Below, piece after piece: positions 10,050 to 59,275 of a stretch of 64,000 nucleotides of DNA; the first letter of the stretch is position 1, and each line of letters starts with the position of its first letter. The notes beneath the pieces were generated by a model, which was not told the origin of the DNA, did no database searches, and worked only from the letters and a program-made list of their open reading frames with translations. The DNA comes from Prevotella sp. (GTDB lineage Bacteria; Bacteroidota; Bacteroidia; Bacteroidales; Bacteroidaceae). The stretch covers positions 1-64,000 of the forward strand of contig JAFVFY010000017.1 in NCBI GenBank assembly GCA_017475265.1, written 5' to 3'. A program made the translations under genes and the position numbers.

Positions 10050-10844
10050 ATGCAAGTCATCTACGAGGATAATCATATTATAGTTGTGAACAAAGCTCCC
10101 GGCGAGATTGTTCAGGGCGACAAGACTGGCGACGTGCCCCTGGCAGACCTCGTGCGCCAGTATATCAAGGAGAAGTATCAGAAGCCTGGCAACGTCTTTC
10201 TCGGCGTCGTCCATCGTCTCGACCGTCCTGTCGGTGGCCTCGTCATTTTCGCCCGAACGTCGAAGGCCCTCTCTCGCCTCAACCGTATGTTCGCCAATGG
10301 AGAGGTGCACAAGACCTACTGGGCCATCACTCCCATTGACCATTCACCATTGACCATTGACCGAAATTGTGCCCCGACGATGTTCAATGGTCAATGTTCA
10401 GTGGTCAATGTTCAATGGTCAATGGTCAATGGACAATGGTCAATGGTCAATGGACAATGTTCAATGGTCAATGGACAGTTAACCCTCACCCACTGGCTCA
10501 CCCGTAACGAGCAGCAAAACAAGTCCTACGCTCACGACCACGAGGTTCCCGGCTCGAAGAAGGCTCAGTTGCGCCTCTCCTGCTTGGCCACTGGTGACCG
10601 CTATCAGCTCCTCGAGGTGCAGCTCCTCACGGGCCGTCACCATCAGATACGCTGTCAGCTCGCCGCCATCGGCTGTCCCATCAAGGGCGACCTCAAGTAT
10701 GGTGCGCCGCGCAGCAATCCCGACGGCAGCATCTCCCTCCTTGCCCGAAGCATTAGCTTCGTTCATCCCGTCTCTGGGGAGGAACTTTCCTTGCAGGCTC
10801 CCATACCCGACGATAGCCTCTGGAAAGCCCTTCAGCGAGTTTGA
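10050..10844 (+). CDS. RluA-family pseudouridine synthase with in-frame repeat insertion
   Basis: A 264-residue enzyme isomerising uridine in rRNA or tRNA. The catalytic aspartate is in HRLDRPVGGLVIFARTS. The C-terminal motif GRHHQIRCQLAAIGCPI is intact. It lacks an S4 domain, as in the short RluA/TruC/RluC-like group; the target base cannot be inferred. Residues 94-143 are an insertion encoded by heptanucleotide repeats: reversed units at 10331-10362, then TCAATGG units at 10381-10478 that give the peptide SMVNGQW repeatedly. The insertion falls between KTYWAI and LTHWL, probably a surface loop. The reading frame survives, so the protein is probably still made. Confidence 0.88.
   Translation: MQVIYEDNHIIVVNKAPGEIVQGDKTGDVPLADLVRQYIKEKYQKPGNVFLGVVHRLDRPVGGLVIFARTSKALSRLNRMFANGEVHKTYWAITPIDHSPLTIDRNCAPTMFNGQCSVVNVQWSMVNGQWSMVNGQCSMVNGQLTLTHWLTRNEQQNKSYAHDHEVPGSKKAQLRLSCLATGDRYQLLEVQLLTGRHHQIRCQLAAIGCPIKGDLKYGAPRSNPDGSISLLARSISFVHPVSGEELSLQAPIPDDSLWKALQRV
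10331..10478. repeat. in-frame heptanucleotide repeat block in the pseudouridine synthase
   Basis: CCATTGA-type units (10331-10362) face TCAATGG-type units (10381-10478), so the two arms could pair as a hairpin. Tandem TCAATGG has no stop codon and encodes the same heptapeptide cycle in all three forward frames. Confidence 0.9.
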
Positions 10845-10848
10845 ACAG

Positions 10849-11042
10849 CAAACCATCTGCGCGAGGCTGAGCAAACTAGCTGGCCACTGCTGAGCTAACC
10901 AGCTGACGAGGCTGAGCTAACCTACGCACTTACCTCATCTAACCTACGCACTTACCTCATCTAACCCACGCACTTACCTCATCTAGCCCACGCACTTACC
11001 TCAGCAAACCCGCTGACGTAGTTCAGCTAGCCTACGAACTGA
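10849..11042. repeat. 22-23-bp tandem repeat array between the pseudouridine synthase and purB
   Basis: About nine units starting five bases after the stop codon. Units at 10917, 10939, 10961 and 10983 are nearly identical (CTAACCTACGCACTTACCTC plus AT). Flanking units are degenerate (CTAACCAGCTGACGAGGCTG plus AG). The period is not a multiple of three, so this is not coding. No spacers are present, so it is not CRISPR. Confidence 0.92.
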
Positions 11043-11103
11043 CTAAATGATTAAAAAATATTAATTTTTGTCAGAAGATACATTCCATATCCTTTTTTAG
11101 TAC

Positions 11104-11111
11104 TACCTTTG
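11104..11111 (+). promoter_or_regulatory. -7 box of purB
   Basis: TACCTTTG, 78 bp before the purB start; no clear TTTG at the usual distance. Confidence 0.5.
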
Positions 11112-11189
11112 CATCACCAACGCAGATGAGAGGGCAAAAAGCCCACCGAATATAGAGTATAGAGAAAGACACTCAGGAAACTTACGATA

Positions 11190-12557
11190 ATGGAATTAAC
11201 AAACCTCACGGCCATTTCGCCTATTGATGGCCGCTACAGGGGTAAGACAGAACCCTTGGCCAACTACTTCTCGGAGTACGCACTTATACGCTACCGCGTC
11301 CGCGTAGAGATAGAGTATTTCATAGCACTTTGTCAACTGCCATTGCCACAGCTGAAGGATGTCCCGCAAGACCTCTTCCAGCCACTGCGCGATATATACC
11401 TCCATTTCACTGAGGCCGACGCCCTCCGTGTAAAGGAGATTGAGGCCACGACCAACCACGATGTCAAGGCCGTGGAGTACTTCATCAAGGAGTGCTTGGA
11501 TAGTGATGAAAATCTCAAATCTCAAATCTCAGATCTCAAATCTGTCAAGAACTTCATCCACTTCGGCCTCACCTCGCAGGACATCAACAATACCTCCGTG
11601 CCCCTCTCGCTGAAGGAAGCACTAGAGGAGGTTTTCATCCCTGTCCTTGAACAGCTCATTGAGCAGCTCAACGACCTTGCCGAGGCCTGGAAAACCATCC
11701 CCATGCTGGCCCGTACCCACGGACAGCCAGCTTCGCCTACACGTCTGGGTAAGGAGCTGAAGGTATTCGTCTACCGTCTGGAGGAGCAGTTGCGTACGCT
11801 GAAGGATACGCCTGTCACCGCCAAGTTCGGTGGCGCAACTGGAAACTTCAATGCCCACCATGTGGCCTACCCACAGTATGACTGGGCCGACTGGGCCGAC
11901 CATTTCCTCGCCGACAGTCTCGGACTGGAGCGTGAGCAGTACACTACCCAGATCTCCAACTATGACTATCTGGCAGCCATCCTCGATGCCCTGCGTCGCA
12001 TCAACACCATCATTATCGACCTCGACCGCGACGTCTGGATGTACATCTCCATTGACTACTTCAAGCAGCGCATCAAGGCCGGAGAGGTAGGTTCAAGTGC
12101 CATGCCACACAAGGTGAACCCCATCGACTTCGAGAACAGCGAGGGAAATATGGGTATGGCCAACGCTGTCCTCGCATTCCTGGCACAGAAATTGCCAGTA
12201 AGCCGCCTGCAGCGTGACCTCACCGACTCTACGGTCATCCGCAACGTCGGCGTGCCTCTCGCACATGCACTTATCGCCATTCAGAGCACCATGAAAGGCC
12301 TCTCAAAACTCATTCTCAACGAAGACAAGCTGCGCCAGGACTTGGAAAACAACTGGGCCGTCGTAGCAGAGGCCATACAGACCATACTCCGCCGTGAAGG
12401 CTACCCGAACCCCTACGAGGCACTTAAAGCATTAACACGTACAAACGAAAAAATCAATCAGGAGACAATAACAAATTTCATCAACACACTAAACGTATCA
12501 GATTCAGTAAAACAGGAGCTTGCCTCCATCACACCTTCAAATTACACTGGCCTCTAA
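11190..12557 (+). CDS. purB: adenylosuccinate lyase
   Basis: A 455-residue enzyme of the fumarase/aspartase superfamily. It splits SAICAR to AICAR and adenylosuccinate to AMP in purine synthesis. Signatures are SPIDGRY at the N-terminus, HFGLTSQDINNTS, ARTHGQPASPT and the family loop GSSAMPHKVNPIDFE. Residues 108-118 (NLKSQISDLKS) are encoded by a heptanucleotide array at 11511-11543 and look like an insertion just ahead of the conserved VKNFIHFGLTS. All catalytic segments are intact. A 22-bp tandem array lies upstream; a 9-nt repeat follows the stop. Confidence 0.96.
   Translation: MELTNLTAISPIDGRYRGKTEPLANYFSEYALIRYRVRVEIEYFIALCQLPLPQLKDVPQDLFQPLRDIYLHFTEADALRVKEIEATTNHDVKAVEYFIKECLDSDENLKSQISDLKSVKNFIHFGLTSQDINNTSVPLSLKEALEEVFIPVLEQLIEQLNDLAEAWKTIPMLARTHGQPASPTRLGKELKVFVYRLEEQLRTLKDTPVTAKFGGATGNFNAHHVAYPQYDWADWADHFLADSLGLEREQYTTQISNYDYLAAILDALRRINTIIIDLDRDVWMYISIDYFKQRIKAGEVGSSAMPHKVNPIDFENSEGNMGMANAVLAFLAQKLPVSRLQRDLTDSTVIRNVGVPLAHALIAIQSTMKGLSKLILNEDKLRQDLENNWAVVAEAIQTILRREGYPNPYEALKALTRTNEKINQETITNFINTLNVSDSVKQELASITPSNYTGL
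11511..11543. repeat. in-frame heptanucleotide array in purB
   Basis: Four to five units of AATCTCA/GATCTCA read through as NLKSQISDLKS. Confidence 0.88.
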
Positions 12558-12598
12558 GGATACCCATTAAACCCATTAGGCCCCCAAAAACTTTCACC
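12558..12598. repeat. 9-nt intergenic microsatellite, junction 2
   Basis: ACCCATTAA, ACCCATTAG and GCCCCCAAA in succession between purB and the next gene. Same family as 9995-10049 and 13940-13992. Confidence 0.75.
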
Positions 12599-13939
12599 AT
12601 GGACATCGAAAACGAGAAAAAAGATCAGCTCAACGAGCAGCAGTCCTCTAGCCGCGACGGCTATCAGAAGGATTTCAGGCCCGCAGGACGCTCGCCGCGC
12701 CCGCGTATCAGCCACAATGGTCCACGCCCGCAGGGCTACGACCGCAGCAACAGTTATAACCGCTATCAGCAGCGCGATGACGAGGGTGCCTTCCGTCCGG
12801 AAGGCTTCGGAACCTCTCTGCAGCAACAGCCCAGGGAGCAGCGTCCCTATCGCGCGCGTACATTTAATAATAATGCCCCCTACCAGCAGCGTGGAGGTTA
12901 TCAGCAGCAGGGTGGGGGATATCGTCCCCGCTATAATCAGGAGGGCGAAGAAGGAGGCTATCAACCTCGGCAGTACCAGTCCCGTCCGCAAGGCTACAAA
13001 CCGCGTCCCCAGGGTGGTGACTACCAGCAGGGTGGCTATCAGCAGCGCCAAGGAGGATACCAGTCCCGTCCGCAGCGATCCTACAATAGCCAGGGTGGCT
13101 ATCAGCAGGGTGGGCCGCGTAAGCCTTTCCAGAAGCGCCCACACACGGGCAACTATGACCCCAACGCCAAGTACTCCATGAAGAAACGCATTGAGTACAA
13201 GGAGGTGAACTACGACCCCAACGAGCCTATCCGTCTGAACAAGTTCCTTGCCAATGCCGGCATCTGCAGCCGCCGCGAGGCCGACGAGTTCATCCAGGCT
13301 GGTGTTGTCTCCGTCAACGGAGAGGTGGTCACCGAGCTGGGAACGAAAATCCTGCGTACCGATGTCGTGCGCTTCCATGAGGAACCAGTAAGCTTGGAGA
13401 AGAAGGTCTACGTGCTCCTCAACAAGCCCAAGGACTACGTTACTACCAGCGATGACCCGCAGCAGCGTAAGACTGTCATGGACCTCGTCAAGGGTGCCTG
13501 CCCTGAGCGTATCTACCCTGTGGGACGCCTCGACCGCAACACCACGGGCGTGCTCCTGCTCACCAACGATGGCGACCTCGCCTCGAAGCTCACACATCCT
13601 AAGTACCTGAAAAAGAAGATTTACCACGTTTACCTCGATCGTAACGTCACCGCTCACGACATGCAGACCATTGCAACTGGCGTGATGCTGGAGGACGGAG
13701 AAATCAAGGCCGACGACGTGCAGTATGCCGATGCCAATGACAAGAAGCAGGTGGGCATTGAGATTCACTCTGGCAGGAACCGCATCGTGCGTCGCATCTT
13801 CGAGTCGCTTGGCTATCGTGTACAAAAGCTCGACCGCGTGCAGTTCGCTGGTCTCACCAAGAAGAACCTCCGCCGTGGTGATTGGCGCTATCTCACAGAA
13901 GAGGAAGTTGACCGCCTCCGCATGGGAGCATACGAATAA
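12599..13939 (+). CDS. RsuA/RluB-family pseudouridine synthase with long Q/G/Y/R-rich N-terminus
   Basis: A 446-residue protein. Residues 1-190 are low-complexity, dominated by Gln, Gly, Tyr, Arg and Pro (repeats such as GGYQQ and [12 protein letters not shown]) and probably disordered RNA-binding sequence. An S4 domain begins near 205 ([20 protein letters not shown]). The synthase domain has the catalytic aspartate in [18 protein letters not shown] and ends with [17 protein letters not shown]. RluB-type members modify 23S rRNA U2605. Such basic extensions are common in Bacteroidota homologues. Placed 41 bp after purB. Confidence 0.92.
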
Positions 13940-13992
13940 GCTTACCCCATTACCCCATTAACCCCATAAAGCCCATTAAGCCCATAATAATA
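13940..13992. repeat. 9-nt intergenic microsatellite, junction 3
   Basis: Units CCCATTAAC, CCCATAAAG, CCCATTAAG fill the gap before asnS; third member of the family at nearby gene junctions. Confidence 0.85.
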
Positions 13993-15462: not shown

Positions 15463-15531
15463 GAAAAATGTGGCTAATAACCCCGAATGTCGTATTTTTT
15501 TTATAGATTTTTGAAAAAAACCTTAAAAATA

Positions 15532-15563
15532 TTTGCACGAAACCGAAAATATGTCTATATTTG
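15532..15563 (+). promoter_or_regulatory. strong promoter of the large surface lipoprotein gene
   Basis: TTTG (15532-15535), 20 bp, TATATTTG (15556-15563): consensus match. The transcript would have a leader of about 200 nt ending in a very AT-rich, Shine-Dalgarno-free ribosome entry region (15735-15774), typical of highly expressed Bacteroidota genes. Confidence 0.85.
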
Positions 15564-15774
15564 CACCCAAAAATCGTGTCTCCGCGCCAGAGACGCGTCT
15601 GTGAGCTAGCCGTAAAGGCCCTAAAACACATGCAGGAGAGCTAGCAAATAGAATGGAAAAAAGGGTGAAGATGAAGATGAAAATAGATAGAGAAAAGATG
15701 TATAGAGAAAGAAAGATTAAACAACTGATGTATTAACTTTTTAATTTTTTTTATTAATTTAAATGTTTAACTGT

Positions 15775-39337: not shown

Positions 39338-39470
39338 ACGAATTACACGAATTGCACGAATTGACACGAATTATTACTAATTTCACGAATTATTCTCTGA
39401 CGCAGCAATTCGTAAAATTAAATATGAATTCGTGTCAATTCGTGCAATTCGTGTAATTCGTGTAATTCGT
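39338..39470. repeat. AATTCGTG-armed palindromic repeat, copy 2
   Basis: Longer copy of the element at 3-103, in opposite orientation. Arms of four to five ACGAATT/GCACGAATT words at 39338-39372 pair with AATTCGTG words at 39427-39470. The core has CTCTGACGCAGCAATTCG. It fills the gap between ruvA and the glycosyltransferase gene. Confidence 0.9.
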
Positions 39471-44002: not shown

Positions 44003-44041
44003 AATGTTCACCAGTTGGTGTTACACCAGTTGGTGAACATT
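44003..44041 (+). terminator. 18-bp hairpin between receptor and CotH genes
   Basis: An imperfect inverted repeat (two mismatched positions) with a 3-nt loop. Each arm contains the palindrome CACCAGTTGGTG. No T tract follows on the plus strand, so it may be an attenuating or stabilising element, or a protein-binding site, rather than a classical terminator. Confidence 0.5.
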
Positions 44042-44056
44042 ATGTACTATATAGAA

Positions 44057-46018
44057 ATGAAACTCAGACTATTGCTCGTACTGCTGGCCTGTGCCATCTC
44101 CCCTTGGCGGACACTAGCGCAGGAACCTGTGTTCAGCCATGAACATGGATTTTATGACGAGCCGTTTGTGTTGACCATAGAGGCTGATGTCGAAGGTACT
44201 GCCACCTTGCGCTATACACTAGATGGCTGCGCCCCCACGGAGAAGAGTGCTGTTTACGACGGTAAGCCGTTGGTTATCAGTGGAACTACCGTTGTGCGGG
44301 CTGCCATCTTCGACGGTGATGTATGCCTCACGCCGGTCACGACGGCTACCTATCTTTTCGTTGAAGACATCCTCAAACAGTCAAACACGCCTGAGGGCTA
44401 CCCGGACACCTGGGGCCGCTACTGCCAGATTAATGGCACAGCAAAGGCCGACTACGAGATGGATCCAGAGATGACCAACGATCCCGTCCTGCGTCCGAAG
44501 ATTATCGAAGGTCTGCAGTCGCTACCCGTAGTGAGCATCGTCACCGACCCCGACAATCTCTTTAGCCATGAGAATGACTCCGTACGTGGCGGCATCTACA
44601 TCTTCACCGGCCCTCCAGTTGGCGATAATACCGGCCACGGATGGACTCGGCCGGCAAGCGTGGAGATTTTTTCTCCTCAATCTTCAATGGTCAATGGTCA
44701 ATCCTCAATGGTCAATGGCCAATGGTCCTGCGGTCTTCGTCTTCATGGTGGCCACGGCCGTCTGCCTGAGAAGAATCCCAAGCACTCTTTCCGCCTTGTG
44801 TTCAAGGAGAAATACGGTCCCAAGACGCTGAAGTACCCGCTCTTCGGCGAAGACGAACCCTCGAAGTTCGACCAACTCATACTGCGCTGTCATTTTGGCA
44901 ACTCTTGGCAACATTGGAAAGAGGACAACCGACAGAAGGCACAGTACACCCGCGACGTATGGGCTCGCCGCATGCAGCGCCGCCTGGGCCGCACCAGTGT
45001 CAACGCCCTCTACGTCAACCTCTTTCTTAACGGCATGTACTGGGGACTCTACAACATTGCCGAGCGCGTCGATGACCAGTTCGGTAAAGACCATATCGGC
45101 GGTGTGAAGGCCGACGTGGACGTCATCAAGATTGAGGAGTCGGGCGGCAACCACCTAGAGGCAGCCCAGGGCAACATAGATTCTTGGAAGCGCGCGACCG
45201 GTCTTGCTGCCATTGTCGGCGGCTCTAGTGTCAATGTTCCCGGTATTCCTGCCGACCTCTCTGCCGACGAAGCCTACAAAGCCCTCAAGGACTCGCTGTT
45301 GGACATCCCCGCCTTCATCGACTACATGCTCATCAACCAGTATGGCGGCAATACCGACTGGGACCATCATAACTGGTATGCTGTGCGTAGTCGTGGTGCC
45401 GACAACAAGGGCTTCCGCATCCTTAGCTGGGATTCGGAAGTCATTGAAGAGAAAGTTAACGAGAACAATCTTGGGAAGAACAATGGCAAGAACTACCCTA
45501 CAGGCATCTTCCATAACCTTTTGCACAACGATGATTTCGCCCGCAGATACGTGCGTCGTGCCAAACAACTGCTTGCTCCCGAAGGTCTGTTGGGTGAGCA
45601 AAGCGTCGTCGAACTATGGGACAGCCTGCATGATGTCATCGCTTCGGCCCTTTACGCTGAGTCTGCCCGCTGGGGCGACTACCGCCGCGACGTACACAAA
45701 TACACCACTAAGGGTCAGCTCTACACCGTAGACGACCACTATGCTGCTGAGCGTAACCGGCTGCTCACGCAGTATTTCCCCTATCGTTCAGACATCGTGC
45801 TCGGTCAGATAACGAGTCTCGTGGATATCGATGATGCTGACATAGAGGGCGATGTCAACGACGATGGTAGTGTTGACGTGGCTGACATCTCGGCCATCAT
45901 CACCGTTATGGCTGGTGGGAGCACGAACGTCTCGTCCACATCAGCTGACGTGAACGGCGACGGCGTTGTGGATGTTGCCGACGTGTCGGCGGTCATCACG
46001 ATTATGGCTTCTGAGTAA
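44057..46018 (+). CDS. CotH-family secreted protein with dockerin domain
   Basis: A 653-residue secreted protein. The signal peptide (LLLVLLACAISPWRTLAQ) is followed by a chitobiase-type beta-sandwich (residues 30-105, TLRYTLDGCAPTEKS). The CotH kinase-like domain spans about 150-560 (PVVSIVTDPDNL, GLRLHGGHGR, ILSWDSE). A two-motif dockerin closes it (GDVNDDGSVDVADISAIIT and DVNGDGVVDVADVSAVIT). CotH proteins are atypical protein kinases of spore coats and cellulosomes; the role here is unknown. Residues 206-223 (SSMVNGQ repeats) come from heptanucleotide DNA at 44673-44726. The 3' end overlaps the GH67 gene end by 17 bp. Confidence 0.88.
   Translation: MKLRLLLVLLACAISPWRTLAQEPVFSHEHGFYDEPFVLTIEADVEGTATLRYTLDGCAPTEKSAVYDGKPLVISGTTVVRAAIFDGDVCLTPVTTATYLFVEDILKQSNTPEGYPDTWGRYCQINGTAKADYEMDPEMTNDPVLRPKIIEGLQSLPVVSIVTDPDNLFSHENDSVRGGIYIFTGPPVGDNTGHGWTRPASVEIFSPQSSMVNGQSSMVNGQWSCGLRLHGGHGRLPEKNPKHSFRLVFKEKYGPKTLKYPLFGEDEPSKFDQLILRCHFGNSWQHWKEDNRQKAQYTRDVWARRMQRRLGRTSVNALYVNLFLNGMYWGLYNIAERVDDQFGKDHIGGVKADVDVIKIEESGGNHLEAAQGNIDSWKRATGLAAIVGGSSVNVPGIPADLSADEAYKALKDSLLDIPAFIDYMLINQYGGNTDWDHHNWYAVRSRGADNKGFRILSWDSEVIEEKVNENNLGKNNGKNYPTGIFHNLLHNDDFARRYVRRAKQLLAPEGLLGEQSVVELWDSLHDVIASALYAESARWGDYRRDVHKYTTKGQLYTVDDHYAAERNRLLTQYFPYRSDIVLGQITSLVDIDDADIEGDVNDDGSVDVADISAIITVMAGGSTNVSSTSADVNGDGVVDVADVSAVITIMASE
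44673..44726. repeat. in-frame heptanucleotide array in the CotH gene
   Basis: TCAATGG-type units, read as SSMVNGQSSMVNGQW; same unit as in the pseudouridine synthase gene. Confidence 0.9.
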
Positions 46019-47816
46019 AAGAGCGGAAATAGGTGGTGCAGACACGCTGCCATTCCTTTGCGTTGAGGAGCTGCTCCTGAAGTTTTGCATTTACTTCGTT
46101 CCACCGTTGCTGGTCGATGCAAGGTTTTTCCTCCTGCCAGATGCGGATGAAGTCCTCCACTTCGTTCACTCCCCGCTGGTAGCGGAACTCCATTTCCTCC
46201 ATGACGGTGCGCCCGCTGCTCAGGCGGCGCGTCCAGGGTACGCGGTGGAACCACAACAGGAGGTTCTCCGGACAGGTGTTCACATCCTCGTAGAGTGAGC
46301 GGAAAGGTTCACGATACTGTCCCGTAGCACCGCTGCCCGTTGCCATCGTGCGGTCGAAGCCAATGCCCAGCGAGTCGGCCTTGTGGTAATAGACGGGGCA
46401 CCACTCTATCGGATAGCGGGCAATGAAGCCGTCGGGCTCAGGGCCGTAGTGGTGGTCGAACTTAAAGATATGATGCAGACCTATCGGCATCATGTAGTCT
46501 ACACAGGCCTCGCGCGAACGAAGCATCATGCTGATTAATTGATGATTAACCATTGAACAATTGCCCTCCGCAGGGTCAATGGTCAATGTCTGTTTAATCC
46601 ATTCCTCAGCAATCTCCCTTGACGTCAGCTGTGGGTTCCAGGCCAGGCGACCGAAGGCGTACCAGTTGGCTTGGGCGAAGTGGTGGCCGCACCAGTTGCG
46701 GTCGAGTCCGATGTTCGACACGCCGGCGATACCCACAAGATTCTTCACACCATCCGACGCGCCTATTCCTACGTTCTGGAAGAACTCCTTCCACATCGGA
46801 GCCAGATAAACCAGATGCGTGCTATGACCCAGGTACTCCTGCGTTATCTGCAGTTCGGCCATCTGCTGCGTGTTCTTCATCTGGTCGAAGATGGGAGCGT
46901 GAGGCTCACGTGGCTGGAAGTCCAGCGGGCCGTTCTTCGACTGAAGGATGACGTTCGGGCGGAACTGCCCGTCCAACTCGGCAAACTCCGAGACGGCTTG
47001 CTTTACACGGTCTTCACCCTTATGCTTGGCACCGTAGACAAACGATCGCCACATCACGATGCCGCCATAGGGCTGCAGCGCGTCGGCGAGCATGTTGGCA
47101 CCGTCGGCATGAGTGCGTCCGTAGTCGAAGGGACCGGGCTGTCCCTCGCTGTTGGCCTTCACCAGGAAACCGCCGAAGTCAGGAATCAGCTTGTAAATTT
47201 CCCGAGCCTTAGCCTTCCACCAACGCTGCACCTGTGGGTTCAACGGGTCGGCGGTCTCTGTGTCGCCAAGTGCCTTGGGCGAGCCGAAGTTCACCGACAG
47301 ATAAACCCTCACACCCCAGGGGCGCAGTTGGTCGGCAATCGTCTTCACGCTGTCCAGATAGACGGCAGTGAGCATCTTCGGCGAGGCGTTCACATTGTTC
47401 AGTACCGAGCCGTTGATGCCAATGGAGGCCAGGGCTTCACCGTATTCTTTGATGAGTGAGAGATTTCCATTATTCATCCAAAAGACGCTCTTTCCGGCAT
47501 ATCCTCGCTCGATACTGCCGTCGAGGTTGTCCCAGTGGTTAATGATTCGATACTTGAACGCGGGATGGCTCTCGCCCTGTTCGCCGCGCATCAGGGCATA
47601 GCGCCCGTAGAGCAGTCCCTGTTCCGTGCGGGCCTCCACGAGGCGACCGGTAATGCGGTAGCCGTCGTCGGCGGGCATGGTGCTGTCAATACGCGTGGTG
47701 ATGTCGGTAGGCATTTCACCCCTGAGCCACAGACGGTGGCCGTCTTCGGCAAAGGCCGATATGGGTGTAAACAAACATAGAAATGCCAGGATGCTGAGTG
47801 CTGATATTGTCTTCAT
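46002..47816 (-). CDS. GH67 alpha-glucuronidase
   Basis: A 604-residue exported or periplasmic glycoside hydrolase removing (4-O-methyl)glucuronic acid from the non-reducing end of xylo-oligosaccharides. Signal peptide residues 1-23. The N-terminal domain and TIM barrel carry the family sequences INHWDNLDGSIERGYAGKS, YLSVNFGSPK and FLVKANSEGQPGPFDYGRTH (acidic active-site region). The C-terminal helical domain includes IGLHHIFKFDHHYGPEP. Residues 410-429 (DPAEGNCSMVNHQLI) derive from a heptanucleotide repeat at 46531-46588, an in-frame insertion between barrel and C-domain. Own promoter at 47842-47873. Confidence 0.94.
   Translation of the reverse strand: MKTISALSILAFLCLFTPISAFAEDGHRLWLRGEMPTDITTRIDSTMPADDGYRITGRLVEARTEQGLLYGRYALMRGEQGESHPAFKYRIINHWDNLDGSIERGYAGKSVFWMNNGNLSLIKEYGEALASIGINGSVLNNVNASPKMLTAVYLDSVKTIADQLRPWGVRVYLSVNFGSPKALGDTETADPLNPQVQRWWKAKAREIYKLIPDFGGFLVKANSEGQPGPFDYGRTHADGANMLADALQPYGGIVMWRSFVYGAKHKGEDRVKQAVSEFAELDGQFRPNVILQSKNGPLDFQPREPHAPIFDQMKNTQQMAELQITQEYLGHSTHLVYLAPMWKEFFQNVGIGASDGVKNLVGIAGVSNIGLDRNWCGHHFAQANWYAFGRLAWNPQLTSREIAEEWIKQTLTIDPAEGNCSMVNHQLISMMLRSREACVDYMMPIGLHHIFKFDHHYGPEPDGFIARYPIEWCPVYYHKADSLGIGFDRTMATGSGATGQYREPFRSLYEDVNTCPENLLLWFHRVPWTRRLSSGRTVMEEMEFRYQRGVNEVEDFIRIWQEEKPCIDQQRWNEVNAKLQEQLLNAKEWQRVCTTYFRSFTQKP
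46531..46588. repeat. in-frame heptanucleotide repeat in GH67
   Basis: Degenerate CCATTGA/TCAATGG units flank a CCCTCCGCAGGG near-palindrome; translated on the minus strand as part of residues 410-429. Confidence 0.75.
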
Positions 47817-49351: not shown

Positions 49352-51979
49352 TTATTTTGTCCTTGTGTGGTTGCTCTCGTCCATGAAAAGGTAGGACGGC
49401 ATATAGCCTCCGAAGTCTACTACTATCTTCTCGAATACAATGCCGGGATGGCGGGGATGGAGGGTAAGCTCTTGAATCTTGGCGGCTTTGCTGACGGGAA
49501 GGGTGACGACCTTCTCCACGATGCGACGGGCCACGGCGGGATAGTATTCGGAATACATATAGGGCTGACGGTCTACGAGCGTCTTGTTGAAGTTCACCAC
49601 CTGAGGTTCGGAGCCGTTGAGGCTGACGGTATATTCAAATCCGCCGACGTTGAGGAAGTCGAGGGTAGACTTCACGATGATGTGTACCTTCACGGAGTCA
49701 AGGGGCGAGGTGTTTGAGTCGGGTAGGGTGAAACGGTAGGTGAGGGTGGCATCGCCGACAGGCTCGGTGTAGGGCGTGAGGGCGACGGCGCTGCGGGTGC
49801 GGCCATAGTAAGGATAGACCGTCCAGAAGGTGCCCTCTGGTGCTTCAGTCTTGAAGAAGTGCTCGGCCTCCATAGAAATGTAGCCGTTGTTAGGAGTGAA
49901 GGTGTAGCCGCCCTCGTTGGCAGAACCAACGGGCACAGTGGTGGTGCGGGGTAGCATCTCGTGGGGGAAGTTGTCGTTCCATGAGCGGTAGCCGATGTGC
50001 TTCTGCGTCATCATGCCTTTCCATTTTCCTCCGGCGATGTCTGTGTTATAGGCGGCGCAGAGCAGGGAGTCGCGGTGGAAGCATTGTGCCACGCGGTCGG
50101 CCCAGAGGTTGGCATCGGGGTCGTTGCTCTTGGCCAGATGCTGGTTCATGGCCTGGGCGTAGTACATATCATAGAGGTTGGCCATCGCCTGTACGGGGAA
50201 GAGAATCAGTTGACGGTAGAAGTCGCGGGCCTCCGCGGGAATCTCTTCGTAGAGGCGCAGGGCGCGAAGCTCTAAGCGTTGGTAGTCGTCGGCCACCTGC
50301 TTCCACTCGCCTGTCTCCACGTTGTAGGTGCGGGCGTCGAGCATCTCGGGGGTGACGCGGGCCATGTACTTGCAGTTCAGGTTGTAGATGTCGGCGGCCT
50401 CGGCAGCTATAGTAGGCCACGCTTCCCAGCGTGGCAGCACCGAAGAGGGATTGTCACGCTGGGAAGCGTGACCTACTATGGAAGCGAAGAAGCGGCGGGT
50501 GTGGTCGGTGACGTTCTGCTGGGTGTACTCCTTGGGGTTCCAGGCCATATCCATAAAGAGCTGAATGGGGTACTCCATAGGCTTGAGATCACCGACATTA
50601 AGAATCCACATACGCTGTATGCCGAAGTCGTAAGCCAGGGAGAGCTGCTCGAACATTTGTTGCGTCTGGGTGACATTGAGCCACTTCGTGTTGCGGGGAG
50701 CACCCACGTAATCCACGTGATAATAGATGCCCCATCCACCCTTGCGGCTGCGCTCAGCGGCGGTGGGCACACGGCGAATGTCACCCCAGTTGTCGTCGCT
50801 GATAAGAATCATCACGTCATCGGGCACGCGAAGGCCGGCATCGTAGTAGTCCTGTACCTCTTTATATAATGCCCACACCTGCGTGGTCTTCGCGGCGGGC
50901 TTCCCTGTCACGTCCTTGATAATCTTGCGCTGGTTGTTGATGATGCACTCCATGAGTTGCGTGTCGGCCTTGTCGCTCATGGCCTCGTCGCCGTCGCCGC
51001 GCATACCGATGGTCACCATGTCCTCGGTGCCCTTCATGCGCTCGATGCCCTCACGGAAGAACTGGTCGAGCTTCGCCTGGTTTGTCTGGTAGTTCCAGGC
51101 TCCCCACTCGCGACGGTGGCGGGCATACTCCTGGTGGTTACGCGCCATCGGCTCATGGTGCGAGGTGCCCATGATGACGCCCATGCGGTCGGCGGTCTTG
51201 CCGTTCTCGGGGTCGTCGGCATAGAAGGCCCATCCCCACATGGCGGGCCAGAGCATGTTTCCTTTAAGACGGAGAATCAGCTCGAATACCTTCTCGTAGA
51301 AGCGGTGGTCGCCATAGTCGGTGCCCCAGGTGTTCTTCACCCAAGAGGTGAGGCAGGGGGCCTCGTCGTTAAGGAAGAGTCCTCGGAACTCCACAGCGGG
51401 TTCGTCGTCGGTATAGGTGCCGGGCAAAAAGAAAGCCTCGTCGTGACGTGCTATGGGAGCATCGGCCCACCAGTACCAAGGCGAGACGCCCAGCTGGCGG
51501 CTCAGCTCGTAGATGCCGTAGATAGTGCCTCGGCGGTCGCTGCCAGCGATAACGATGGTGGGATTTGAGGTTTGAGAGTTGAGAGTTGAGAGTTGAATGT
51601 CGGTAATGATGAACTTCTCGCGCTTGCCTTTCAGGTCAGATAAAATATTAACTGATTTACGATTTGCGATTTCATCGATGACGGGATTCTTGCCGAGGGT
51701 GCCAATAAGGATGGTCGGGGATTGCAAATCCCCTCCAACAGATTGCAAATTCCCTTCAACAACAGATAGGGTAGGGGCTTTCCCCAAGACCCGCTCCATA
51801 TCGGCCTGGAGGTTGCGGATGGCAATCTTCACGCCCTCGTCGTCGTTGTCACTATAGCCGATGGTAGCATTGACGAGGCTGACTGCTCCCGGCTGTTGGG
51901 AAAAACTGATGAACTGCTCTGCGGCTGAGAGCATAGACATTTGCAGCAAAGCAAACAAGGAAAGAATGAGTCGTTTCAT
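49352..51979 (-). CDS. GH115 xylan alpha-1,2-glucuronidase
   Basis: An 875-residue exported enzyme removing glucuronic acid from internal and terminal positions of xylan. Signal peptide residues 1-19. An N-terminal GH20-like domain (TIYGIYELSRQLGVSPWYWWAD) precedes the TIM barrel (LFLNDEAPCLTSW, RLKGNMLWPAMWGWAF, TSHHEPM), a helical domain and a C-terminal beta domain. Three in-frame repeat insertions exist: residues 76-88 (GNLQSVGGDLQS), 128-140 (heptanucleotides, QLSTLNSQTSN) and 501-524 (a palindrome). All conserved blocks remain open. It is convergent with DUF1593, 6 bp apart. A TAATTTTG box (52005-51998, minus) lies upstream. Confidence 0.93.
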   Translation of the reverse strand: MKRLILSLFALLQMSMLSAAEQFISFSQQPGAVSLVNATIGYSDNDDEGVKIAIRNLQADMERVLGKAPTLSVVEGNLQSVGGDLQSPTILIGTLGKNPVIDEIANRKSVNILSDLKGKREKFIITDIQLSTLNSQTSNPTIVIAGSDRRGTIYGIYELSRQLGVSPWYWWADAPIARHDEAFFLPGTYTDDEPAVEFRGLFLNDEAPCLTSWVKNTWGTDYGDHRFYEKVFELILRLKGNMLWPAMWGWAFYADDPENGKTADRMGVIMGTSHHEPMARNHQEYARHRREWGAWNYQTNQAKLDQFFREGIERMKGTEDMVTIGMRGDGDEAMSDKADTQLMECIINNQRKIIKDVTGKPAAKTTQVWALYKEVQDYYDAGLRVPDDVMILISDDNWGDIRRVPTAAERSRKGGWGIYYHVDYVGAPRNTKWLNVTQTQQMFEQLSLAYDFGIQRMWILNVGDLKPMEYPIQLFMDMAWNPKEYTQQNVTDHTRRFFASIVGHASQRDNPSSVLPRWEAWPTIAAEAADIYNLNCKYMARVTPEMLDARTYNVETGEWKQVADDYQRLELRALRLYEEIPAEARDFYRQLILFPVQAMANLYDMYYAQAMNQHLAKSNDPDANLWADRVAQCFHRDSLLCAAYNTDIAGGKWKGMMTQKHIGYRSWNDNFPHEMLPRTTTVPVGSANEGGYTFTPNNGYISMEAEHFFKTEAPEGTFWTVYPYYGRTRSAVALTPYTEPVGDATLTYRFTLPDSNTSPLDSVKVHIIVKSTLDFLNVGGFEYTVSLNGSEPQVVNFNKTLVDRQPYMYSEYYPAVARRIVEKVVTLPVSKAAKIQELTLHPRHPGIVFEKIVVDFGGYMPSYLFMDESNHTRTK
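50409..50479. repeat. 71-bp palindromic element inside the GH115 gene
   Basis: 25-bp arms (50409-50433 and 50455-50479) match at 24 of 25 positions around a 21-bp loop. On the gene strand it encodes VGHASQRDNPSSVLPRWEAW within the protein. Confidence 0.92.
51561..51597. repeat. in-frame heptanucleotide array in GH115
   Basis: TTGAGAG units with period 7, read on the minus strand as QLSTLNSQTSN. Confidence 0.88.
51717..51754. repeat. GGATTTGCAATCC element, doubled, inside GH115
   Basis: A near-palindrome GGGGATTGCAAATCCCC and a second partial copy, read as GNLQSVGGDLQS. A 15-of-17 match lies at 4864-4880 in the M23 peptidase gene. Confidence 0.75.
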
Positions 51980-52057
51980 ATATCTCGGAGTTTGCTGCAA
52001 AATTAGTGAGTATTCACCATATAGGTTTTCACTCACGTATCAAATAGTTAAGCAAAA

Positions 52058-52089: not shown

Positions 52090-52117
52090 CACCCAGTAAT
52101 GTTAAACCCCTGAAACT

Positions 52118-52417: not shown

Positions 52418-52424
52418 GTATCCT

Positions 52425-54217: not shown

Positions 54218-54225
54218 AGTCGCTG

Positions 54226-54257
54226 CAAAGGTACGAATAAGAGAGCGAATAACCAAA
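54226..54257 (-). promoter_or_regulatory. promoter of the flavoprotein gene
   Basis: Minus strand TTTG (54257-54254), 20 bp, TACCTTTG (54233-54226). Confidence 0.8.
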
Positions 54258-54422
54258 TATATTTTGAGTTTTTCCGACAAAAGACCCTTTTGTAATAAGA
54301 AGATTGTGGAAATCCTTGGTGAAAGACAACACACTGTATCTATGAAACCCAGAATCGCGCCCTTTTCGCCTTAAAAATATAAAAAGGAGGTGGCAAACGC
54401 ACGATATTACGAAAATAATCAT

Positions 54423-54430
54423 TAACTTTG
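54423..54430 (+). promoter_or_regulatory. -7 box of the Rpn nuclease gene
   Basis: TAACTTTG 26 bp before the ATG; no recognisable -33 element. Confidence 0.55.
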
Positions 54431-54456
54431 CGGCATAATTCAAAAACAATACGACT

Positions 54457-55374: not shown

Positions 55375-55381
55375 ATTTAGA

Positions 55382-55468
55382 GATTACCATTAGGAGTGAA
55401 AACATTTAGCGATTACCATTAGTAGCGAAAACATTTAGCGATTACCATTATGAGTGAAAACAGAACAT
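55382..55468. repeat. 29-bp tandem repeat ending in a start codon
   Basis: Units at 55382, 55411 and 55440 (GATTACCATTAGGAGTGAAA plus ACATTTAGC). Only the third unit has T in place of G or A at the key position, making the ATG at 55450 of the esterase gene. Confidence 0.92.
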
Positions 55469-57111
55469 TTGCGATGCTTGCCATCGCCAGTCTTACACTT
55501 CTGAGTGCTTGTACGGCGAAGAAGTCAGAAGAAGTTACCCTTCAAGTGAAGACCCAGTATGGCGTCCTTGAGGGCATCGAGGAAGACGGAGTTAAGAAAT
55601 TCCTGGGAGTACCTTTCGCGCAAGCGCCTGTTGGTGAACTCCGTTGGAAGGCTCCGCAACCCGTTCAGTCATGGGAGGGTGTACGTGATGCCAAGCAATT
55701 TGGTGACGACCCCATGCAACCCAGCATCTTCGGCGACATGTCGTTCCGTGGCAAAGCGAAGAGCGAGGATTGCCTCTACCTGAACATCTGGACGACGGCA
55801 AAAACCACGGCTGACGCCCTTCCCGTGCTCATCTATTTCAATGGTGGCGGCTTGATGGCTGGTTCTGGCAGCGAGCCTCGTTACGACGGCACCTCCATTG
55901 CCAAGGAGGGTGTTATCGGAGTGACGGCCAACTATCGTGAAGGAGTGTTTGGCTTCTTTGCCCATCCAGAACTCACGGCAGCTTCCGAATACAAGGGCAG
56001 CGGCAACTACGGCTTCCTCGACCAGGTGGCGGCCATCAAGTGGGTGAAGGAGAACATCGCAGCCTTCGGCGGCAACCCTGACCGTATCACCATCGTGGGT
56101 GAGTCAGCAGGTTCGTTCTCCGTGTCGCTCCTGATGTGCTCTCCGCTTTCCAAGAACCTCATCGCCGGAGCCATGCTCTCTTCTGGTGCAGAAGTGTTGC
56201 CGTTCAAGGCTTCCTCGCTGGCCGATGCCGAAGCCGCCGGAGCCGCCCTTCTGAAGAATGCTGGCATAGAAAGTCTTGATGCCGCTATGTCGATGGATGC
56301 CGACTCTCTCCAGAAGCTGCTTCCTCCCAGAGGCATGGCCAACGTGGTGCTCGATGGCTACTTCCTGGCTGAGAGTGCTGACGACGTGTTTGAGAAGGGT
56401 GAGCAATCTCAGGTGCCTCTGCTGGCAGGATGGAACTCCCTCGAGGGTCATCCCCTTCAGTCGCTCATGGGTCAGGCGCCCACCGTCGAGAACTACAAGA
56501 ACGTCATGAGAATGCGTTTTGGCGATATGACCGACGAGATTTTCGAAGCCTACGGCATCACGGCCGACGAGGATGTGTTGAGTCAGAAAGGCTTCGACCT
56601 CGCCTCCGACCTCTTCACCGGCTTCCCTACCTGGAAGGCTTGCGACTACCACGTCCGCACCTCCACTCAACCCGTCTATCGCTACCACTACATGCACCCG
56701 CGTCCACAGGTATCAGCCAAGATGGGCGACAAGACAGGTGCCCTTGCCGGTGGCGTGCGTGAGAAAACCGAGGAAGAGAAGAAGGCTGAATCCCAGCAAC
56801 CTCCCATCCAACCTGGTGCCGTTCATTCTGCCGACATCGAGTACGCCATGGGAACCCTCGACACCAACGAATACTACGACTGGCAGGAAGAGGACTTTGC
56901 CATTTCAAAGTTGTTCCTCACCTTCTATGCCAACTTCTGCAAGACGGGCAATCCCAACGGCGAGGGGCTTCCCCAGTGGACGGCCATCACCAAGGACAAC
57001 CTTGACAATGCGCCTGTCATGATTATCGACGTTGAATCGAAGGAGGTTGCTTCCCCTGAGAAGGAGAACGCCTACCGCACGTTGGAAAAGTTCTACAGAA
57101 GCCAGGAGTAA
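55450..57111 (+). CDS. type B carboxylesterase lipoprotein
   Basis: A 553-residue alpha/beta hydrolase lipoprotein. Lipobox LLSAC near residue 21. The family N-terminus is KFLGVPFAQAPVGELRWKAP, the oxyanion hole FNGGG, the nucleophile serine in IVGESAGSFSVSL, and the catalytic histidine probably in AVHSADIEYAMG. Family members in xylan loci can be acetylxylan or feruloyl esterases; the substrate here is not determined. The start codon lies in the last unit of a 29-bp repeat and the stop codon in the first copy of a 42-bp duplication. A region of charged residues (REKTEEEKKAESQQPPIQP) near residue 440 looks like a flexible insertion. Confidence 0.9.
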   Translation: MSENRTFAMLAIASLTLLSACTAKKSEEVTLQVKTQYGVLEGIEEDGVKKFLGVPFAQAPVGELRWKAPQPVQSWEGVRDAKQFGDDPMQPSIFGDMSFRGKAKSEDCLYLNIWTTAKTTADALPVLIYFNGGGLMAGSGSEPRYDGTSIAKEGVIGVTANYREGVFGFFAHPELTAASEYKGSGNYGFLDQVAAIKWVKENIAAFGGNPDRITIVGESAGSFSVSLLMCSPLSKNLIAGAMLSSGAEVLPFKASSLADAEAAGAALLKNAGIESLDAAMSMDADSLQKLLPPRGMANVVLDGYFLAESADDVFEKGEQSQVPLLAGWNSLEGHPLQSLMGQAPTVENYKNVMRMRFGDMTDEIFEAYGITADEDVLSQKGFDLASDLFTGFPTWKACDYHVRTSTQPVYRYHYMHPRPQVSAKMGDKTGALAGGVREKTEEEKKAESQQPPIQPGAVHSADIEYAMGTLDTNEYYDWQEEDFAISKLFLTFYANFCKTGNPNGEGLPQWTAITKDNLDNAPVMIIDVESKEVASPEKENAYRTLEKFYRSQE

Positions 57112-57153
57112 GCACGGAAGCCAGGAGTAAAGTTCTACAGAAGCCAGGAGTAA
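57088..57153. repeat. duplicated 3' end of the esterase gene
   Basis: AAGTTCTACAGAAGCCAGGA plus GTAA occurs at 57088-57111 and 57130-57153; GAAGCCAGGAGTAA also at 57117-57130. The real stop is in the first copy, so the others are untranslated. Confidence 0.9.
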
Positions 57154-57165
57154 ACACAGTCGCCC

Positions 57166-58695
57166 TCAATTCCCTCTGGTCACGGTCGTGACCATGCGTT
57201 CGCTGCTTTGCAAGCGGCTGACGACGCTACGTGTGTCTGTCGTTACAGGACGGAGGCAGAAATCAGGCGTGTTGTAGGAGTCGAGCAGAAGGCGGTAATA
57301 CCCCTTGGGGTCACGCTGTGGCAGCATGAATGGTTTCGTTGCCCTTCCATGTTCATCGATGGAGGCGAAGTATACCCGCGTGAAAAGACCGTCATCGCGT
57401 CGGCTGGTGAACAGGAACCAATGGCTGTTTGCTGACCAGCTGTGCAAGCTCTCCGCCCTCTCCGTATTCACCTCGTCCAGAGGTCGCGTCTCTCCCGTCA
57501 GCAGGTCGAGCAGCCACAGGTCGGCTTCTGGGTGCCAGATGGAGAAATAGCCGTAGTTCACCTGCGTGTACATGACGTAGCGGTTGTCGTAGCTAGGACG
57601 TGGCCAGGTGGCGCTCTTGCCGGTAAGGCGCGTGTTGACCAGTGTGTCGACCGTCTGTCCGATGCTGCCCGTCGAGGCGTCGAAGGCTACGCGGCAAAGG
57701 CTGTAGCGCTCCTTGTCGTAATCGGTGGGATAAACCTGCCGTCGTGCGGTGGTGAAGTAGAGCCACTGGCCGTCGGCCGAGAAAGCCGGGGTGTTCTCTG
57801 CCCAAAGCCTTTTCATGATGAGCGTGTCCTGAACGATGACATGGTTCTCCGTGTCGTAGACGAACACGTCAGACGACGAGTCGTACACCTCGATGCGTTT
57901 CTTATTCGAAAGGTGGAACATCTGCGAAGTCTTGTTCGTTGAGAAGGCGATGAAACGCCCGTCGGGATGCCAGTAGGGGTATACCATCGCGCCGCCCAGC
58001 GAGTCGTTCTTCGACTGCAGCACCTCCAGCTCGTCGCCAATCGTTCCTCCCTTACTGTTTCTGATGATGGTGCCGCCGTGGTCAGCGCGGGCGTGGAACA
58101 CATACTGGTCGGGGTTCGTGGCGTTGGCCGTATGGCAGTTGACACAGGTGCCCATCGACCAGCTGTTCTCCACCAGCGGCTTCTCGTCGAAGGTGCTGAG
58201 GCAGCGTTGGTAGAGGCTCATAGGGCCGAACATCTCGTAGCCAGGAGCTATGCGGCGGTAGGTGATGCCCCAGGCGCCGATGGAGTCGTTGCTGACGTAG
58301 ATGCAGAAGTCGCGGTAGCGTGTCCAGCGGCCGTCGCGTCGGGCACAGACAGAGACGCTAAGGCTGTCGCCACGGTTGGCAGCCAGCAGGCGGTGCCACT
58401 CGTCTACGTCGAACTCCGCACTTTCCCCATTCACGTGCATCGAGCCGCCCTTGCCGCCCGTCACCTCCACGTCGATGGCCGAGACGCTGTCGCTGAGCAT
58501 CGAGAAGTTCAGCGGGGCAATGTCGAGGGGAACCGTCACGCCCACGTAATCGGGATATATCTGTGGCAGCTCATCGCTCTGCTCGGCATCCTCCCCGGGG
58601 ACAATTTGTCCGCAACCGACGAGGAGAGCGGTCAAGCACAGGAGCAAGAACGAGCACCTGTTCCTACAGGAAGAATTGGTCTTGGGTGTTTTCAT
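57166..58695 (-). CDS. TolB/PD40-type beta-propeller lipoprotein with CxxCH motif
   Basis: A 509-residue lipoprotein (lipobox LLVGC). Residues 30-160 are a beta-rich N-domain. A single CVNCH motif follows near residue 182, the covalent heme-attachment pattern of c-type cytochromes. Then come PD40/TolB propeller blades (YWHPDGRFIAFSTN, PAFSADGQWLYFTT, SANSHWFLFTS). Such cytochrome-propeller proteins occur in Bacteroidota next to a TPR lipoprotein gene, as here (upstream gene overlaps by 32 bp). The function is unknown; heme binding is inferred from the motif only. Confidence 0.82.
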   Translation of the reverse strand: MKTPKTNSSCRNRCSFLLLCLTALLVGCGQIVPGEDAEQSDELPQIYPDYVGVTVPLDIAPLNFSMLSDSVSAIDVEVTGGKGGSMHVNGESAEFDVDEWHRLLAANRGDSLSVSVCARRDGRWTRYRDFCIYVSNDSIGAWGITYRRIAPGYEMFGPMSLYQRCLSTFDEKPLVENSWSMGTCVNCHTANATNPDQYVFHARADHGGTIIRNSKGGTIGDELEVLQSKNDSLGGAMVYPYWHPDGRFIAFSTNKTSQMFHLSNKKRIEVYDSSSDVFVYDTENHVIVQDTLIMKRLWAENTPAFSADGQWLYFTTARRQVYPTDYDKERYSLCRVAFDASTGSIGQTVDTLVNTRLTGKSATWPRPSYDNRYVMYTQVNYGYFSIWHPEADLWLLDLLTGETRPLDEVNTERAESLHSWSANSHWFLFTSRRDDGLFTRVYFASIDEHGRATKPFMLPQRDPKGYYRLLLDSYNTPDFCLRPVTTDTRSVVSRLQSSERMVTTVTRGN

Positions 58696-59275
58696 AGTTC
58701 TCACGCAGTTTGTTGAAGATTTCGTGCTGTCGTATTTGCTCCGGGTGCAGGGCAAGGGTTCTCATTTCGCCGACCCACTCCTTGCTGGAGAAGTTCTCCT
58801 CGACGATGCCGATGTATTTCAGCGCCAGCTCGTATTGCCCCGTGATGAGTGCCGTCTCGGTGAGCCGACGTAGCGCACGCTCACTGTCTTTTACCCCCGT
58901 CTTCTTCACCATTGCCTCAAAGGCGGCACGCTGTGCCATTGTGACCATGCCCAGCTGCATGTACACGTCGCTCATCATCATGGCGGCCAGCTCGCTTGTC
59001 AGCACTTCGCGCGAGTCGGAAAGGCACTCCTTGACGACATGCTGGTCAGTATGCCCCAGGCGATACTGTGCCAGGCACACCACCTTGCGACATGCCAGCG
59101 ACTGTGTGGGTTGCTGACGGTTTTTCTCGACAATCTGCTCCCACTTCCCCCTCAGTTGAAGCGCGTCGTACTCACGCTCCTCGTCGGTTCCGTCGAAATG
59201 ACGGGGTGTTGACGAACAGCCAAAGACAATGAACAGTAAACAATAAACAATGAACAATAAGCAGTATCTAATCAT
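58664..59275 (-). CDS. TPR-like lipoprotein whose signal peptide is encoded by repeat DNA
   Basis: A 203-residue lipoprotein: lipobox VFGC, then a helical repeat region (residues 35-195) resembling TPRs (LAAMMMSDVYMQLGMVTMAQ, LITGQYELALKYIGIVEENF). Residues 3-18 (two YCLLFIV heptads) are encoded by a heptanucleotide array at 59223-59267. The consensus promoter at 59281-59312 ends 5 bp before the ATG, implying a leaderless or near-leaderless mRNA; the signal peptide leaves no later start. Operon partner of the PD40/CxxCH lipoprotein. Confidence 0.8.
   Translation of the reverse strand: MIRYCLLFIVYCLLFIVFGCSSTPRHFDGTDEEREYDALQLRGKWEQIVEKNRQQPTQSLACRKVVCLAQYRLGHTDQHVVKECLSDSREVLTSELAAMMMSDVYMQLGMVTMAQRAAFEAMVKKTGVKDSERALRRLTETALITGQYELALKYIGIVEENFSSKEWVGEMRTLALHPEQIRQHEIFNKLRENYENTQDQFFL
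59223..59267. repeat. heptanucleotide array encoding a signal peptide
   Basis: Units AACAATG, AACAGTA, AACAATA in tandem; read on the minus strand as YCLLFIVYCLLFIV. Confidence 0.92.

Follow-up and report, generated by a model that had tools for sequence, protein, structure and literature searches.

Heptamer arrays and palindromic inserts read in frame within ordinary genes of a Prevotella genome

Protein-coding palindromes are known from Rickettsia, Wolbachia and Methanocaldococcus, as described in excerpts of PMC10969869 and PMC2996958. Tandem heptamers have been described as the short tandemly repeated repetitive (STRR) sequences of cyanobacteria, as GGGAATC/GGGGATT of Xanthomonas and Nostoc, and as TAACTGA of Beggiatoaceae; inverted heptamer pairs were reported from Xanthomonas (excerpts of PMC4692102 and PMC4679880), and a two-unit TAACTGA set lies within purC of Flexibacter litoralis, a Bacteroidetes (excerpt of PMC4679880). 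The titles and abstract openings listed by searches of the open-licence PMC literature contained no description of heptamer or palindromic insertions inside Prevotella or Bacteroidales genes. Here, we describe tandem heptanucleotide (period-7) arrays inside genes of a Prevotella sp., starting from bases 1-64,000 of contig C14 (JAFVFY010000017.1), hereafter the window, in an assembly of 4,750,954 bases and 135 contigs (GCA_017475265.1, G000 below). An original prediction, made from the letters of the window, had placed such arrays in frame inside at least six unrelated genes, six of them listed, and had proposed that each could be an ON/OFF switch. The case joins the heptamer-repeat and protein-coding-palindrome phenomena, in Bacteroidota. 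As the best explanation, and a probable one, we propose tolerated in-frame insertions of repeats, with units copied between loci and selection acting on frame and stop codons.

Heptamer arrays within open reading frames

We detected period-7 arrays with Tandem Repeats Finder (TRF) and a lag-7 detector. In five of the six genes, namely the RluA-type synthase, purB, CotH-like, GH115-like and lipoprotein-like genes, arrays were found at the predicted places, all read through in frame as had been claimed (Table 1). The sixth, in the GH67-like gene, is weakly supported: the degenerate array stayed under the threshold of both detectors, and the lag-7 excess at 46531-46588 is weak (28 of 66 positions; p by shuffling 0.001, and 0.012 when any lag from 4 to 12 is admitted). 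Six period-7 arrays were counted in the window at score 12, versus none in five Markov shuffles; period 9 matched period 7 at this score (6 vs 6) and was rarer at score 15 (2 vs 5). The stretch 10331-10478 of the rluA-type gene, predicted as one array, indeed has period 7 and is refined here to two opposed arms around a 17-nt loop. The second unit of the left arm is CCATTCA, which abolishes an in-frame TGA.

The wider search covered a genome sample of 723,049 bases (15% of the genome), in which the window was joined by 20 stretches from the start or end of contigs and by 20 from the interior of longer ones. The sample is approximately unbiased, with TCAATGG possibly over-represented because most contigs giving interior stretches had come to notice through their TCAATGG arrays. 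Genes were taken as open reading frames (ORFs) of at least 100 codons, by length and not with a gene finder. At score 15, the sample held 86 period-7 arrays; period 9 came second with 24, and every other period between 5 and 15 gave at most 12. ORFs of the sample contained 53 period-7 arrays versus none in each of five codon shuffles. By position, 51 of the 86 arrays lie at least 90% within an ORF (46 of these with at least 30 codons on either side), 18 run across an ORF end and 17 lie outside. ORFs make up 90% of the sample, yet 35 of the 86 arrays are not contained in them, and the density is thus several-fold higher outside. Coding sequence therefore acts as a filter for the arrays, not as a magnet.

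The filter was observed directly in the orientation of the units. Of the 47 coding arrays that have stops on just one strand, the sense strand is stop-free in 42 and not in 5 (p 2e-8). An equal frequency of stop-bearing units inside genes, which would have told against the original prediction, was thus not observed. Inspected by eye, all five arrays in the stop-bearing orientation carry a substitution in the critical unit that abolishes the stop: TGA is replaced by TCA at window position 10333, L035, L040 and L042, and by TTA at L235 (the L026 locus). At ORF ends, 10 of the 18 arrays are in the stop-bearing orientation. G000 has 20 distinct (TCAATGG)3 arrays, and every one of them is in sense within an open frame, 19 with at least 61 open codons before and at least 75 after, the twentieth being cut by a contig end; the frame leaves the fetched stretch in seven of the 20, one of them at a contig end.

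These frames bear on the proposal that every array is a contingency locus, in which slippage by one unit acts as an ON/OFF switch by shifting the frame, since seven is not a multiple of three. A 7-bp unit inside ORFs is what such a switch needs, as gain or loss of one unit changes the frame, and the longest arrays reach 138 bp and would be slippage-prone in principle. We compared them with a contig scan for (TCAATGG)4 that lists 80 loci, a lower bound, including 40 Bacteroidales loci with 42 arrays. Ten of the 29 arrays of other Bacteroidales loci that lie in sense within ORFs, among these matches listed, are less than 30 codons from an ORF end, which could suit a switch, whereas in the other 19 the frame is open for at least 30 codons on each side. 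A freely drifting unit number would leave about two-thirds of the arrays out of frame, in contrast to the 20 of 20 in open frame in G000, and none of the 13 non-ORF Bacteroidales arrays among the matches listed has long open frames in different frames on both sides. At L161, the single ambiguous case and one of the ten near an ORF end, the long mismatched flanking frames look like the non-coding strand of opposite-strand genes. Hosts include purB, purA, hisS and rsmH, and an OFF state would be costly in such housekeeping types. The single orthologous pair compared (G140 and G000; comparisons of frame between species used consensus sequences, one genome per species) differs by frame-preserving lengths. 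With no clear frame-split gene among the 20 G000 and 42 listed Bacteroidales arrays, the predicted switch finds no backing, and we consider it scarcely credible as a general account of the arrays.

Table 1. Repeat-bearing genes and their arrays in the window.
Feature	Position	Strand	Translation, family or basis
RluA-type pseudouridine synthase gene, with the largest insert of the window	10050..10844	+	Pfam PF00849, residues 9-206, spanning the insert
rluA insert, left arm (CCATTGA)n	10333..10362	+	PIDHSPLTIDR; TRF
rluA insert, loop between the arms, 17 nt	10363..10379	+	lag-7 detector, arm-pair search
rluA insert, right arm (TCAATGG)n	10380..10474	+	MFNGQCSVVNVQWSMVNGQ...; TRF and lag-7 detector
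purB, adenylosuccinate lyase	11190..12557	+	Pfam PF00206 and PF08328; PDB homologues
purB array (AAATCTC)n = (TCAAATC)n	11510..11543	+	ENLKSQISDLKS; TRF
CotH-like gene (predicted label)	44015..46018	+	ORF and translation
CotH-like gene array (TCAATGG)n	44677..44727	+	PQSSMVNGQSSMVNGQW; TRF
GH67-like gene (predicted label), degenerate short inverted heptamer pair	46545..46589	-	TIDPAEGNCSMVN; by eye
GH115-like gene (predicted label)	49352-52036	-	ORF
GH115-like gene array (CTCTCAA)n = (TCAACTC)n	51564..51596	-	IQLSTLNSQTSN; TRF and lag-7 detector
Lipoprotein-like gene (predicted label)	58664-59311	-	ORF
Lipoprotein-like gene array (TATTGTT)n	59226..59266	-	RYCLLFIVYCLLFIVFGC, hydrophobic stretch ahead of the cysteine at a lipoprotein-like start; TRF

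Other repeats of the window are 22-bp tandem repeats at 10847-11040, directly 3' of the rluA-type gene (TRF), and period-9 arrays between ORFs at 9993-10044, 13942-13985 and 39338-39470.

Host proteins and the loops that carry the arrays

Twenty array-bearing proteins were scanned with Pfam, which identified RluA, PurB, RsmH (MraW), a UvrD-type helicase, a TrmA-type methyltransferase, RibD, a ketoacyl synthase, a peptidase M3, HisS, PurA, an aminotransferase, an ABC2 permease and an FGGY kinase among the hosts. A domain match crosses an array in 11 of the 20 proteins, and one protein had no family at all. We then aligned the hosts with homologues. The rluA match was present in 40 of 40 genomes searched (G000 included), in three of them as a weak match only. 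Compared with G000, the rluA loop is shorter in 29 of 29 other loci of the genus and the purB loop in 24 of 29, usually by 7 aa; in both alignments the array site is directly seen to be a variable loop position. Among solved structures, the RsmH homologue has 13 residues where G000 has 47, the PurA and rhamnulokinase homologues are shorter at the array by 7 and 9 residues, respectively, and PurB of PDB 9bpl is 8 aa shorter at the array loop. Solved-structure matches of RluA align just on the two flanks of the insert, and the RibD alignment is ambiguous. The same peptides are thus absent from distant homologues in the four clearly aligned cases (PurB, RsmH, PurA and rhamnulokinase), which bears out the predicted in-frame insertion in unrelated genes for these hosts.

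Other species revealed how the same loops are filled elsewhere. In the sister species G367, the rluA loop measures about 35 bp, compared with about 146 bp in G000, and contains no TCAATGG; it carries another period-7 stretch (27 of 44 lag-7 matches, p 5e-5, or 5e-4 for any lag). Likewise, the purB loop of G367 holds period-7 sequence of other units (19 of 38 lag-7 matches, p 0.002, or 0.016 for any lag from 4 to 12). At these two orthologous loops, the difference in unit is a direct observation. A third heptamer occupies the rluA loop of G007 (lag-7 fraction 0.57). In G088, the closest other relative, the purB loop has no significant period 7 (p 0.12) and period 7 of the rluA loop is doubtful (p 0.012, or 0.08 for any lag). 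By eye, we recognized an 18-nt inverted repeat of another kind in the rluA loop of G074 (L080), and hairpins in the purB loops of G032 (L050) and G083 (L057). Because orthologous loops hold different heptamers, hairpins or inverted repeats, we conclude that the rluA and purB loops take up small repeats repeatedly and that the period can persist while the unit changes. One gene is common to G140 and G000; there the G000 copy exceeds the other by 21 bp in the right arm and by 33 bp on the left side, the latter difference being interpretable as 21 bp from the arm and 12 bp from the loop.

The loop contents are also what an explanation by usefulness has to meet, according to which the arrays are linkers or signal peptides under positive selection and the peptide itself spreads. 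The (TATTGTT)n array, which supplies the hydrophobic part of a lipoprotein-like start, agrees with it, as does (TCAATGG)n, which occurs 11 times in coding sequence and never elsewhere in the sample. Outside the sample, which leans to array-holding contigs, 13 of the 42 Bacteroidales (TCAATGG)4 arrays among the matches listed lie beyond ORFs. The sister species, in contrast, fills the same loops with period-7 arrays of other peptides, and neither the stop-bearing orientation of more than half of the ORF-end arrays nor the higher density of arrays outside ORFs would be expected of a selected peptide. We therefore give this explanation very little credence.

Shared units, palindromic inserts and the origin of the arrays

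The original prediction had stressed that the units differ and the period does not. The shared period was confirmed, but the units are not unrelated, since TCAA, read in the direction of the gene, is part of 36 of the 51 coding arrays (TCAATGG, TCAACTC, TCAAATC, TCAATTC and others). Sharing of units is directly apparent from the fact that 46 of the 86 arrays are made of four units, out of 1172 possible unit classes, 1020 of which are stop-free on at least one strand. At L009, a single array shifts from one unit to another. The contig of this locus (C11 of G000) terminates within a TCAATGG array, which suggests that longer arrays may be missing from the assembly or collapsed in it.

The genus is large, and one search drew on 398 of its genomes. 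The pattern (TCAANNN)4 occurs in 48 of 60 genus genomes (G000 included), with 784 matches in G000 and 0-395 in the others when overlapping matches are counted. The reversed pattern gave 59 matches in G000 and exceeded the pattern itself in some species, a control that is not independent because TCAACTC arrays match it too. The sister species G367 (87% complete) has 68 (TCAANNN)4 matches, (TCAATGG)3 was found in 3 of 35 other same-genus genomes, and the unit mix varies from species to species. Among the matches listed, (TCAATGG)4 also occurs in Prevotella and Bacteroidaceae rumen records and in records of Fischerella, Calothrix and Westiellopsis. Of the arrays among the matches listed, 29 of the 42 from Bacteroidales lie in ORFs, defined by length, versus 7 of the 39 from other records (p 5e-6, Fisher test; one unclassified locus was left out). 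The locus with most exact (TCAATGG)4 matches among those listed is L129 of Niastella vici, with 22 within 8 kb.

Two related genes (L014:4187-4217 and L025:1939-1969) have an identical array at the identical site (ELTFR.AINGQWSMVNSQSITYETDAVIG), suggesting that duplication also spreads arrays. In addition, a dispersed repeat, CGCTCGGCCNNNGGACGCTTGCNNAGCAAGAA, was listed at 11 occurrences (L024:1629, 2665 and 2712; L040:9065(-); L230:13096; L041, L223, L225, L233, L235 and L311), 6 of them flanked by TCAACTC-like units. It lies in frame inside ORFs in L024 and L040; a twelfth 10-mer match, L228, was found without context.

Palindromic elements with a shared loop core are new beyond the original prediction. 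In many cases an array forms one arm of a palindrome, (CCATTGA)n-loop-(TCAATGG)n, whereas many other arrays are single-armed. The arm-pair search of the collected loci showed the order CCATTGA arm, loop, TCAATGG arm directly at 19 of 19 distinct Bacteroidales loci. Of four non-Bacteroidales arm pairs, Larkinella has the same order, and Fischerella, an Acidobacteria bin and Niastella the reverse. When the sample was tested for TTGA/TCAA pairs in general, 7 rows at 5 loci had the TTGA-first order and none the reverse. The resulting peptide, IDHSPLTIDHS-loop-NGQWSMVNGQ with variations, recurs in many unrelated ORFs. The loop core GCTGCGC is present in 6 of 15 palindrome loci found without it, where 0.06 would be expected by chance over the whole list (the 15 are a list of 20 rows less 4 fetched by the core pattern and 1 duplicate; the loops listed span 20 to 49 nt). 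The core came, together with GGACGCTTGC, from a search of 10-mer flanks in which some loci were counted twice and which served as a lead only. A core-pair search found more core-bearing pairs in G000, G367 and G140, with 0, 2 and 2 in the reversed control, respectively; two of the core-pair matches, in G073 and on contig C45 of G367, look unrelated. A free hairpin of the type GGCTGCGCAT...ATGCGCAGC stands at L039 and L227 of G000, as judged by eye. A sub-threshold Rfam match of the palindrome to MIR6146 was taken as spurious.

Purely local polymerase slippage would offer a simpler origin, in which period 7 is favoured by the polymerase and every array grows out of a seed at its own locus, with no copying between loci. 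It would accord with the report that heptamers are, in most genomes surveyed, the commonest long simple sequence repeat (SSR) class, for which polymerase slippage was proposed (Mrazek 2007, cited in an excerpt of PMC4679880), and with the graded length and decay of the arrays. Four of 1172 unit classes would not be expected to supply 46 of 86 arrays from independent seeds, however, and the species-dependent unit mix, the single palindrome order in Bacteroidales and the loops with a common core also speak against it. Since unit sharing and palindrome order are left unexplained, local slippage is insufficient alone, and we regard it as unlikely.

We prefer tolerated insertion with copying of units. 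Heptamer arrays, many of them as palindrome arms, would enter tolerant loop positions of ordinary genes, and their unit number would then alter in 7-bp steps by slippage. Within genes, purifying selection would eliminate all changes except those that, in the stop-free orientation, keep the frame overall. Units could spread by ectopic templated copying, by gene conversion of array ends or by insertion of palindromes; such copying between loci would lead to species-specific unit mixes and to orthologous loops with different units. In-frame insertion itself is seen directly in the alignments; that units are copied, by what machinery, and that the inserts bring no benefit is what we infer.

We looked for a driver of such copying. 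Reverse transcriptase was rejected as a candidate: PF00078 (E 0.001) occurs in 23 of 60 genus genomes, including G000, and in none of several array-rich species, such as G079, G028 and G008, with 243, 159 and 149 (TCAANNN)4 matches at a completeness of 99, 99 and 90%. The transposase associated with repetitive extragenic palindromes (REPs), RAYT (PF01797), was found in 13 of 15 array-rich genomes (at least 60 (TCAANNN)4 matches) versus 7 of 15 array-poor ones in a hand-picked set of 30, in which G367, one of the 13, is under the family cut-off and two array-rich species have no match. In G000, the PF01797 match examined, one of three, is a RAYT-like Y1 transposase gene on contig C37 (L339:1344-2078), located between 120-nt inverted REP-like clusters (GACGGGGGTG...CCCCCGG) that are 89% complementary. 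This 3.3-kb locus has its own GACGGGGGTG/CCCCCGTC repeats, and neither a heptamer array nor GCTGCGC was found in it. Reverse transcriptase and the RAYT of G000 are both unlikely drivers of the arrays.

The recurrent CCATTCA unit had been taken up as a possible proof of copying. Of 19 matches to CCATTHACCATTGACC in G000, 18 are TCA; they represent 14 places, and at 13 of these the matched orientation is an open frame. We downgraded this argument, as TGA-to-TCA changes also occur in other unit families and the pattern probed the second base only.

Several points weigh against tolerated insertion with copying. No transposase, reverse transcriptase or other driver could be tied to the arrays, and no target-site duplication was defined, the nearest species found, at about 10-17% DNA divergence here, being too far for exact empty sites. 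The core GCTGCGC is absent from 9 of the 15 palindrome loops, including that of rluA in the window. Recurrence of TCA may mean selection for serine or mutation bias, because the same change occurs in the L040 and L042 families. Simple insertion followed by purging does not predict the confinement of (TCAATGG)n to coding sequence in the sample, although the sample is weighted to contigs with such arrays. In HisS, the loop is replaced at equal length relative to the solved homologue with no net insertion, and at least one ORF, L161, is probably not a gene.

A bolder form of the explanation would be that of genus-wide coding micro-elements, consisting of a hairpin core of GCTGCGC and heptamer arms, which are copied in frame into loops and whose arms are rewritten unit by unit from arrays of the same genome. 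We put this forward as a tentative and rather doubtful possibility. If it were true, hundreds of loci would evolve in concert, giving a continuing supply of new Bacteroidales protein loops, and a templated copying activity with a 7-nt step would be the driver.

Comparison with described repeat systems

Tolerated insertion into so many housekeeping-type genes, if correct, means that short non-triplet repeats can keep supplying new protein loops, filtered by frame and stop codons. Because the same loop with the same period holds a different unit in the sister species, the spread of heptamers is directly testable. Two cautions for annotation follow: period alone is no ground for annotating such genes as phase-variable, and a peptide of the NGQWSMVNGQ kind in a Bacteroidales protein can stem from a DNA repeat.

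Phase-variable SSRs of contingency loci share with the present arrays a unit not divisible by three and a place inside an ORF, whereas here there is no clear out-of-frame state and the identified hosts are mostly metabolic or housekeeping proteins. REP palindromes with RAYT resemble the arrays as small dispersed hairpins, one kind of which stands free in G000, but the RAYT locus examined is flanked by other repeats and not by heptamers. With heptanucleotide SSRs and STRR sequences, the arrays have in common tandem 7-mers and the occurrence of one unit at many loci. Unlike the heptamers of that type, which are mainly intergenic according to the excerpts of PMC4692102 and PMC4679880, the majority of the sampled arrays lie inside ORFs. 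The closest likeness in behaviour is to the Rickettsia palindromic elements (RPE), which, in the excerpts of PMC10969869 and PMC2996958, are likewise in-frame repeats in unrelated and housekeeping genes, many of them palindromic, located in non-structured segments and encoding a recurring peptide. Unlike in RPE, the arms here are heptamer arrays of variable length, many are one-armed, several unit families exist, and the host belongs to Bacteroidota. Because many arrays are single-armed and the likeness is drawn from descriptions, we do not class the arrays as RPE, even though they appear to work like them. They may be regarded as the equivalent, outside the intracellular bacteria, of the palindromes that encode protein segments in Rickettsia and Wolbachia.

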